Positions 1,251 to 6,889 of a stretch of 64,000 bases of DNA are shown piece by piece (the first letter of the stretch is position 1; every line of letters begins with the position of its first letter). The DNA comes from Vulcanisaeta souniana JCM 11219 (GTDB lineage: Archaea > Thermoproteota > Thermoprotei > Thermoproteales > Thermocladiaceae): NCBI RefSeq assembly GCF_026000775.1, contig NZ_AP026830.1:434001-498000 (forward strand). Reading direction: 5' to 3'. The notes below the pieces were generated by a model. The model was not told where the DNA came from, did not search any database, and saw only the letters and a list, made by a program, of their open reading frames with translations. The position numbers were made by a program, and so were the translations under genes.

Positions 1251-1268
1251 TGATGCGCCGTGATCAGT

Positions 1269-1745
1269 ATGGTTTTAATGAATTTATACAATTACTACAT
1301 AATGGTTTCCATAGCTTTAATCCAAATAGCCATACTATCCTCATTCATATACCAAGTGTTTAGGGAATCGAAAAAACCCATAGAAAAGGAGCGGGATAAT
1401 GTAAGAGTCGCAACCTCAAGAACATCAGTGAGCCAGTTGGAGTTTGATGAAACAGCAAGCAAGGCAGTTACAAGTAATAAGGCCATGAGCGAATTGAGTG
1501 ATGCTGTAAATGAAGATGAGATAAGCGTCCTCTCGTTCCTGTTATCTAAGGGTGGTGAAACGTACCAAGCTGAGATAGCCAGGGAATTAGGGCTTCCAAA
1601 GAGTACGGTTTCTAGGATCATTAGGAGATTGCATGATAAGGGATTAGTAACGGTCAGGAGGGTTAGTAAGTACAGTTACGTGCAGATAACCGACATGGAC
1701 TACGTAAGTGACTTAATTAGTAGATCAAGACTTAATAATTCGTGA
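1269..1745 (+). CDS. Membrane-anchored winged-helix transcriptional regulator
   Basis: The N-terminus holds one hydrophobic segment (about residues 6-28) followed by a charged, low-complexity linker of some 60 residues. The C-terminal half is a winged helix-turn-helix: LSFLLSKGGETYQAEIARELGLPKST gives the first two helices, VSRIIRRLHDKGLV the recognition helix, and VTVRRV the wing. It resembles MarR/IclR-type archaeal membrane-bound regulators. The ATG at 1269 fits the TATA distance; a GTG at 1260 is in frame and would add three residues. The last 21 nt overlap the end of the convergent PfkB kinase gene. The target is unknown; the palindrome over its own promoter suggests self-control. Confidence 0.8.
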   Translation: MVLMNLYNYYIMVSIALIQIAILSSFIYQVFRESKKPIEKERDNVRVATSRTSVSQLEFDETASKAVTSNKAMSELSDAVNEDEISVLSFLLSKGGETYQAEIARELGLPKSTVSRIIRRLHDKGLVTVRRVSKYSYVQITDMDYVSDLISRSRLNNS

Positions 1746-5041: not shown

Positions 5042-5935
5042 ATGCCTAATACAGTCGTTGTAATAGGCGATTCACCGATACCAGATAGACCGAGTAGAGA
5101 CCTAGTAATTTATGCAAGAGACTTGGGGTTGAATGCTACGTATGTGCCGGTTTCACGAATATCAATCAAGGTCAATAAGGACGGCTCGCTAGTCGTAATC
5201 AGGGACAAGCCATTCAAGGTTGATGGCGCATTTCTCAGAAGCCTGGGTGTCCTTATAGACGTAGAGACGTTTTTCAGGAGGACAATAACAATTAAGTTAA
5301 TTGAGGAGGGAGGCACCGTAGTCATAAACCCACTCGAGGGTTTATTGAAGACTAGAAATAAGCTTGAGACAACCGTAATACTAAGGGATAAGGGATTACC
5401 CGTACCTGATACAATAGGCACTGAGGACATACTGTATGCGTATGACATGGCAAAGAACATGAAGAACATAGTAATAAAGCCCCTGCAGGGCTCCAGAGGA
5501 TACGGTGCAGTGAAGATCAGCGATGCTGATATAGCATTCCAAATAATGAAGACACTGCTCACCTACAAAAAGCCAATATATTTACAGAAGTATATCGAGA
5601 AGCCAAATCGGGATATAAGGGTCATGGTTATTGATGGCGAGGTATTTGGCTGTATGATAAGGGTGGCGTTAAATGGACAGTGGAAGACAAACGTTGCTCA
5701 GGGAGCCATTGGTAGGCCATGCATAGGCATTGACAAGGCCGTTATGGAAATAGCAGTGAGGTCTGTGGAGGCCCTGGGCCTTGTATACGGTGGTGTTGAC
5801 ATAGGTGAGAGTAGGGATGGTTATGTAATCTTTGAGGTGAATGGATCACCAGATTGGGCCGAGTTAACCGCAGTTACTGGCAAGAATCCTGCGAAGGCGC
5901 TTATTTCATCAATGATGAGAAGATTAAAGGCGTGA
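5042..5935 (+). CDS. RimK/LysX-type ATP-grasp ligase
   Basis: This is an ATP-grasp enzyme that joins an amino acid (typically glutamate or aminoadipate) to a carboxylate through an acyl-phosphate. The visible parts are an N-terminal Rossmann-like lobe, KPLQGSRGYG (146-155) for the nucleotide lid, QKYIEKPNRDIRV (182-194), NVAQGA (217-222), GVDI (251-254) and the Mg site FEVNGSPDW (264-272). The 297-residue length is right for LysX, RimK and the cofactor-glutamylating MptN/CofF type. No LysW-like carrier or lysine/arginine genes are nearby, so a general alpha-L-glutamate ligase call is safest. A TATA box centred at about 5016 gives a leaderless ATG. Confidence 0.85.
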   Translation: MPNTVVVIGDSPIPDRPSRDLVIYARDLGLNATYVPVSRISIKVNKDGSLVVIRDKPFKVDGAFLRSLGVLIDVETFFRRTITIKLIEEGGTVVINPLEGLLKTRNKLETTVILRDKGLPVPDTIGTEDILYAYDMAKNMKNIVIKPLQGSRGYGAVKISDADIAFQIMKTLLTYKKPIYLQKYIEKPNRDIRVMVIDGEVFGCMIRVALNGQWKTNVAQGAIGRPCIGIDKAVMEIAVRSVEALGLVYGGVDIGESRDGYVIFEVNGSPDWAELTAVTGKNPAKALISSMMRRLKA

Positions 5936-5985
5936 GTTAAACTGGGTAAAGATTTATTTTACTGTTATTGAATTACTGAGTGCTT

Positions 5986-6198
5986 ATGACGAGGTGGCTG
6001 GTTAAATGTGATAAGTGCGGTGAGGAGTCAATATTCAATGCAGGTTATGACTTAACAAACCTAGGTAGTAAAGTATACATGTATTGTGGTAGGTGTAGGA
6101 GGAACACTGAACATACGGTGCTTGGTTATTATGATGATGATACAGGGGAGTTCATACCATTCGAGAAGGCATTATCATTTAAGTACAGGTCGTTATAG
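5986..6198 (+). CDS. Small zinc-ribbon protein (70 aa)
   Basis: It has CDKCG near the N-terminus and CGRCRRNTEH about 25 residues later, forming a four-cysteine zinc ribbon with an acidic C-terminal tail (YYDDDTGEF). The ATG at 5986 is preferred; an in-frame GTG at 5980 would add two residues. It converges with the CdvA-like gene, whose stop is 2 nt away. Family not identified; the second half (RCRRNTEHTVLGYY) resembles rubredoxin-like or eL42/eL44-like ribbons only superficially. Confidence 0.66.
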   Translation: MTRWLVKCDKCGEESIFNAGYDLTNLGSKVYMYCGRCRRNTEHTVLGYYDDDTGEFIPFEKALSFKYRSL

Positions 6199-6200
6199 CC

Positions 6201-6860
6201 CTAGTAGCACTCTTTCTCGAGTTCCATTCTTAGTGAGAGTAAATCTGACCTCACCTTCCTAAGCCTATTAATCAAGTCATCAAGTCCCACTAACTCATTC
6301 TTATCATCGTCCCTCAACTCACCAACAACTTGCTTGATCATTAACTCACCCTTCCTTTTCTCGGCATCGCTTATTTTTTTATCTATTTCAGATAACGTGT
6401 CATTTATCGCGCTAATCTTATCATTACACTGCCTAATCCACTTAGTTCTCTCCTTCTCAAGTCTCTCTCTAATGTCCCTATAAAGATCTTCCTTAATTTC
6501 ACCCTTGATAAGAAGCTCACTCAACTTATTCAGCTTATCCATAATGTCCCTAAGCCTCTCCTCAATACTAGCCGCCTCATTCTTTAACGCACTAACAAAA
6601 CCTGAATACTCATCACTAAACTTCTGAAGCACAACCTTGTCTGCTGTGAATGTTGCACCAACGTCATTAACATTGAATTCCCTAAGGCTACCATCATTCA
6701 TCTTCACAGTTATAGAGACAGGCCTTAGGTCATTCTTACTCAGCCTTATACTGACTATTGCGCCTATTGTCCTGCCATCGCCTGTCACTACGGGCTTTCC
6801 CACATACTTCTTGAACTTCTTCTCTGCAGATTTTGTGGAACTAAAGAATTTAAATACCAT
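6201..6860 (-). CDS. CdvA-like protein: PRC-barrel domain plus coiled coil
   Basis: Residues 15-80 form a small PRC-barrel-like beta domain (KKYVGKPVVTGDGRTIGAIVSI). Residues 85-219 are almost continuous coiled coil, broken by an LLIKGEIKEDLYRDI segment. This order and length match CdvA, the crenarchaeal membrane- and DNA-associated protein that recruits ESCRT-III in Sulfolobales. A C-terminal ESCRT-III-binding tail was not recognised, and no cdvB or cdvC neighbours are present. The ATG at 6860 is 26 nt from a TATA element (6881-6890), so I prefer it to the ATG at 6872. A role in chromosome or membrane organisation is inferred from family only. Confidence 0.7.
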   Translation of the reverse strand: MVFKFFSSTKSAEKKFKKYVGKPVVTGDGRTIGAIVSIRLSKNDLRPVSITVKMNDGSLREFNVNDVGATFTADKVVLQKFSDEYSGFVSALKNEAASIEERLRDIMDKLNKLSELLIKGEIKEDLYRDIRERLEKERTKWIRQCNDKISAINDTLSEIDKKISDAEKRKGELMIKQVVGELRDDDKNELVGLDDLINRLRKVRSDLLSLRMELEKECY

Positions 6861-6889
6861 CAACACGAACATTAAAATGCAATATAAAT

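Follow-up and report, generated by a model that had tools for sequence, protein, structure and literature searches.

Did an ancient division scaffold outlive its ESCRT partners and change its mechanism? The Thermoproteales are usually described as ESCRT-free, and the question is raised here by a cdvA-like gene in a 64,000-nucleotide window of the closed 2.43-Mb genome of Vulcanisaeta souniana. How cells of this order manage to divide with neither FtsZ nor ESCRT is still regarded as an open question (PMC7617429). The original prediction had assigned a PRC barrel and a coiled coil to the open reading frame at positions 6201-6860, and this frame proved to be a real gene of a member of the Thermoproteales, located on the minus strand and encoding 219 amino acids between ATG6860 and a TAG stop codon at 6203-6201. 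Of the two in-frame ATGs, 6872 and 6860, the latter is the likelier start, as judged from the sequence, because a TATA-like box (TTTATATT, 6881-6888, minus strand) lies approximately 24 nt upstream of it, as in a leaderless archaeal transcript, and because the start codon occupies the same alignment column in 30 of 30 homologs. ATG6872 is disfavoured since the box would be too close to it.

Does the encoded protein resemble CdvA beyond a generic PRC barrel, as had been claimed? The matches of the single sequence to the relevant models are all sub-threshold, with 18.1 bits for PF05239 (PRC), 16.1 bits for PF18822 (CdvA coiled coil, curated cut-off 30 bits) and 13.5 bits for NF041007 (NCBIfam CdvA, curated cut-off 350 bits), the latter being a narrow equivalog model which only 10 of 115 matching genomes exceeded in the phylum search and which tests close membership only. 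Taken at face value, these scores would be in line with a barrel and a coiled coil that are both unrelated to CdvA and share nothing but a generic likeness with it. Yet single-sequence searches are a weak guide here, because coiled coils attract noise, and we chose profile-profile comparison with reversed controls over single-sequence HMM and PDB sequence searches. In this comparison the profile of the family matched that of canonical CdvA collinearly over both barrel and coiled coil (hhalign, E 2.2e-14, 98.3%, 159 columns), far over the reversed profiles, which retain composition and heptad periodicity (E 0.003-0.0045, 7.7-10.5%). In the same alignment the GEIKEDLYRDI stretch (residues 120-130; 6471-6503, minus strand), which had been singled out as a CdvA-type break in the coiled coil, falls on the hairpin turn EIPKxxYxEMKxKL of CdvA.

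The predicted fold agrees with the profile match. The AlphaFold model, for which Vulcanisaeta sequences alone served as input (mean pLDDT 82), shows a PRC barrel at residues ~19-80 (6621-6806, minus strand as for all parts of this gene), a region in which PF05239 matches 21 of 30 homologs (best 1.1e-7), followed by helices at residues 84-118 (6507-6611), 124-179 (6324-6491) and 184-218 (6207-6311), with the last of which the protein ends. The same succession of a barrel and three coiled-coil helices has been reported for CdvA (PMC12818579). Among 350,542 PDB chains searched with Foldseek, the first nine places were all taken by Sulfolobus islandicus CdvA (full length, 202-205 columns, E 2e-7 to 5.6e-6), and although PRC structures are also found among the matches, CdvA outranks every PRC-only match as well as all other PRC and coiled-coil chains. 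The TM-scores to S. islandicus CdvA are moderate (0.39-0.58), probably owing to a different angle between barrel and coil. A coiled coil of the three-helix CdvA type is thus indicated alike by the profile alignment over both domains, the helices of the model and the nine best fold matches. Moreover, proteins of the Thermofilaceae type, which also combine a PRC domain with a coiled coil, are placed between the Thermoproteales family and canonical CdvA in the phylogenetic tree and so form a bridge between the two groups. Taken together, we consider a merely generic likeness highly improbable, and judged by sequence comparison the gene is a strongly diverged Thermoproteales ortholog of CdvA.

The extent of this divergence is considerable. 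The canonical CdvA model gives strong matches in the rest of the phylum and no clear match in the Thermoproteales, whose sequences cluster (94/89) in a tree that contains several long branches, and identity between subgroups of the family falls to 19-20%. The subgroup from the Thermoproteaceae matches CdvA only weakly on its own (65.6%) and is tied to the family through the other subgroups and through synteny. Proteins from other families of the same class (L040, L041, L042, L045 and L055) are CdvA-like with a PRC domain and a coiled coil and intermediate in the tree as well, and they have neither the C-terminal E3B tail of canonical CdvA nor the cysteine pair described below. Within the collection of homologs, 38 of 41 genomes contain a match at E <= 0.01, and nearly all genomes of the Thermoproteales have a single full-length match. 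Synteny of the locus extends from Vulcanisaeta to Pyrobaculum (this name and Thermofilaceae are those inferred, in part from kinship, for the compared genomes): in 8 of 10 loci the gene is accompanied by a convergent gene for a small Zn-ribbon protein (72 amino acids; 5980-6198, plus strand) and by a gene for a RimK/MptN-like ATP-grasp ligase (5042-5935, plus strand), and most of the compared loci have further neighbours in common. This conservation supports orthology within the order, and it places the gene outside any cdvB/cdvC operon. Another neighbour, which recurs throughout the order at a distance of 3-6 kb, encodes a protein that combines a hydrophobic N-terminal segment with a winged helix (1260-1745, plus strand). 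The CdvB profile picks it up via the winged helix; however, its good score as a common HTH protein of the MarR/TrmB type leads us not to claim it as a detached winged helix of CdvB.

The presence of a diverged CdvA in the Thermoproteales is already known, as it was reported in 2023-24. According to Makarova et al. 2024, citing Zhao et al., diverged CdvA orthologs are found in almost all Thermoproteales, and two CdvA-related families, arCOG03733 and arCOG03734, are added there (PMC10936438). The gene described here is almost certainly this published ortholog, since no other PRC-containing protein with a likeness to CdvA was found in the genome. The idea of a CdvA-like protein in an order without Cdv machinery was therefore correct in outline, but not new. 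We found no mention of the cysteine pair, the loss of the E3B tail, the N-terminal tag or the synteny in the main text of PMC10936438. The term "stand-alone", too, holds in part only: there is no cdvABC operon, yet the same genome carries two CdvA-related paralogs, an adjacent pair of the arCOG03733/arCOG03734 type (G000, 676.3-677.6 kb), which we recognised by its published description (adjacent genes, the first with a Zn ribbon, and a CdvA-like hairpin) rather than by arCOG accessions. The cdvA-like protein itself belongs to neither of these families, as it contains a PRC barrel and its gene is single.

What, then, is left of the division machinery in this genome? FtsZ was found in 0 of the 45 genomes of the search, in which the positive control matched. 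As PF03357 (Snf7) proved insensitive to archaeal CdvB, with no control genome over the cut-off, that of S. acidocaldarius included, a purpose-built CdvB alignment was searched instead; it revealed no credible ESCRT-III core in the order, its better matches being winged-helix regions. Four matches to Vps4_C occur in the Vulcanisaeta genome, and the two of them that are listed lie in frames of 741 and 899 amino acids, a size that points to Cdc48-type ATPases and not to CdvC; no Vps4-sized protein is among the matches listed for this genome. Crenactin, by contrast with CdvB, is present both here and in most of the Thermoproteales. The expectation that the ESCRT-based Cdv machinery would be missing is thus borne out to the extent that no CdvB, CdvC or FtsZ is identifiable in the genome, CdvC with reference to the matches listed. 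Within the same class, genomes from sister orders have kept the complete cdvB-cdvA-cdvB-cdvC operon with a tail-bearing CdvA. The crenactin gene cluster (L135:3475-10403; G000:808-815 kb) is located approximately 370 kb from the cdvA-like gene. In it, the crenactin gene adjoins an open reading frame of 227 amino acids and a Rad50-like one of 826 amino acids, and on its upstream side lie a gene for a small-GTPase-like protein and another small open reading frame; by position the cluster is of the arcadin type. A compact ESCRT locus was observed in each of two genomes from another genus of the same family, as loci L164 (G013:C54:31.7-35.3 kb) and L166 (G016:C188:2.1-7.8 kb). In both, a Vps4 AAA protein, whose Vps4_C domain scores over the cut-off and whose MIT domain falls slightly short of it, stands next to a Snf7/PspA-like coiled coil, and an FHA protein is also present, in L166 together with a Ser/Thr kinase. 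The two loci resemble the kinase/FHA-associated ESCRT types as these are described in the main text of PMC10936438; the two assemblies are fragmented, and contamination is possible.

The cdvA-like family has features of its own at both ends of the protein. At the C-terminus of canonical CdvA a flexible linker leads into a hydrophobic peptide of conserved sequence (PIPVRVINTL, QVVVLEG-type), the E3B region, which binds the winged helix of CdvB. This peptide is missing from the family, in all 30 members of which the chain stops with the coiled coil, 0-3 residues past the last cysteine, and the loss of the tail coincides with that of CdvB. All 30 homologs share two invariant cysteines, Cys145 (codon 6426-6428) and the penultimate residue Cys218 (codon 6207-6209), with a spacing of 73 residues in 28 of 30, and besides this pair only two cysteines occur in the 6,690 residues of the family. 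Canonical CdvA has no cysteine near its C-terminus, and the pair is not found in the Thermofilaceae-type proteins. Since the midpoint between the two residues, (145+218)/2 = 181.5, coincides with the centre of the loop between helices 2 and 3 of the AlphaFold model, Cys145 and Cys218 should face each other across the antiparallel hairpin, a geometry that follows from helix register and not from coordinates. This, together with the documented richness of Crenarchaea in disulfides (PMC3177088), suggests as the simplest reading that an intramolecular Cys145-Cys218 disulfide staples the hairpin.

At the other end, most members open with a segment similar to M-h-[FLW]-[KRNS]-[FLI]-[FIL], such as MVFKFF, MFWRLF or MPLSFF. 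In Vulcanisaeta it reads MVFKFFSS (residues 1-8, 6837-6860) and is followed by a basic stretch; three aromatic residues within the first eight are seen in 2% of the open reading frames of the window. The tag resembles the N-termini of CdvB, whose N-terminal helices bind the membrane, and we offer its function as a membrane anchor as a suggestion only, the segment being short, variable, weaker in some lineages and disordered with low pLDDT in the model. As to polymerisation, the longitudinal filament interface of S. islandicus CdvA comprises A90, L94, I100, I149, M153 and I156, whose simultaneous mutation abolishes filaments. The residues corresponding to A90 (Lys112) and I149 (Gly/Ser/Glu171) are non-hydrophobic in Vulcanisaeta, I100 is kept as I122 in 29 of 30 homologs, and the equivalents of L94, M153 and I156 are hydrophobic in Vulcanisaeta, where L116, I122, I175 and V178 are all hydrophobic. 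With two of six positions non-hydrophobic, polymerisation through an interface of this type is uncertain.

Canonical CdvA forms double-stranded helical filaments and a ring at mid-cell. We propose, with a probability of roughly 60%, that the Thermoproteales protein is an ESCRT-independent CdvA filament scaffold which is probably used in cell division. It would most likely self-assemble into CdvA-type filaments, its hairpin locked by the Cys145-Cys218 disulfide, and would no longer recruit ESCRT-III, the E3B peptide and its partner CdvB both being gone. Tethered by its short hydrophobic N-terminal tag, the scaffold would probably act at the membrane or the division site, in concert with the CdvA-related arCOG03733/arCOG03734 pair and possibly with the crenactin/arcadin system. 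More tentatively, and rather doubtfully so, CdvA might be the very core of an ESCRT-free division apparatus in the Thermoproteales, having traded its tail for a stapled hairpin and an N-terminal anchor and recruited the arCOG03733/arCOG03734 proteins as partners.

But could a CdvA that has lost its ESCRT partners have left division altogether? It might have become a cytoskeletal or cell-cortex protein that takes no direct part in division, for instance a crenactin anchor or a determinant of cell shape. Crenactin is at hand here as in most of the order, its published localisation is an extended helix and not the division site (PMC5840170), and ESCRT partners were not found. Then again, the cdvA-like gene is unlinked to the distant crenactin cluster and the CdvA relatives of known function act in division, so that we regard this alternative as unlikely. 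Still less probable in our view is a mainly DNA-organising protein whose CdvA-like filaments bind the chromosome and compact or segregate it. CdvA of M. sedula was reported in DNA-containing filaments (PMC3132758), but the cryo-EM filaments of S. islandicus CdvA showed no DNA (PMC12818579), and that the coiled coil weakly matches SMC-type models is noise of a kind typical for such sequences. An ESCRT-independent division scaffold hence remains our preferred reading. The family provides a conserved, compact, single-copy division candidate in nearly every genome of the Thermoproteales, including that of the culturable Pyrobaculum, and its cysteine pair, lost E3B tail and N-terminal tag make this role biochemically testable.

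A link between a PRC barrel and a division system also exists in the euryarchaeal PRC-barrel division proteins described in the main text of PMC10936438; these, however, act with SepF and FtsZ, the latter of which is not found in the Thermoproteales. The arCOG03733 and arCOG03734 proteins share the helical hairpin of CdvA (hhalign to CdvA 84.6-85%, as opposed to 1-3.5% for reversed profiles), but unlike the cdvA-like protein they lack a PRC barrel, carry an N-terminal Zn ribbon in the first of the two and are encoded at a separate locus. Compared with CdvA of the Sulfolobales, the cdvA-like protein is devoid of the flexible linker and the E3B tail, shows the Cys145/Cys218 pair and the N-terminal hydrophobic tag as distinguishing marks, differs in two of the six filament-interface residues and is not encoded in a cdvABC operon. 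With S. islandicus CdvA (PDB 9s9g, 9s9h and 9s9i) it nevertheless has in common the PRC barrel, the three-helix coiled coil, the EIPK/GEIK hairpin turn and, the tail aside, approximately the same length.
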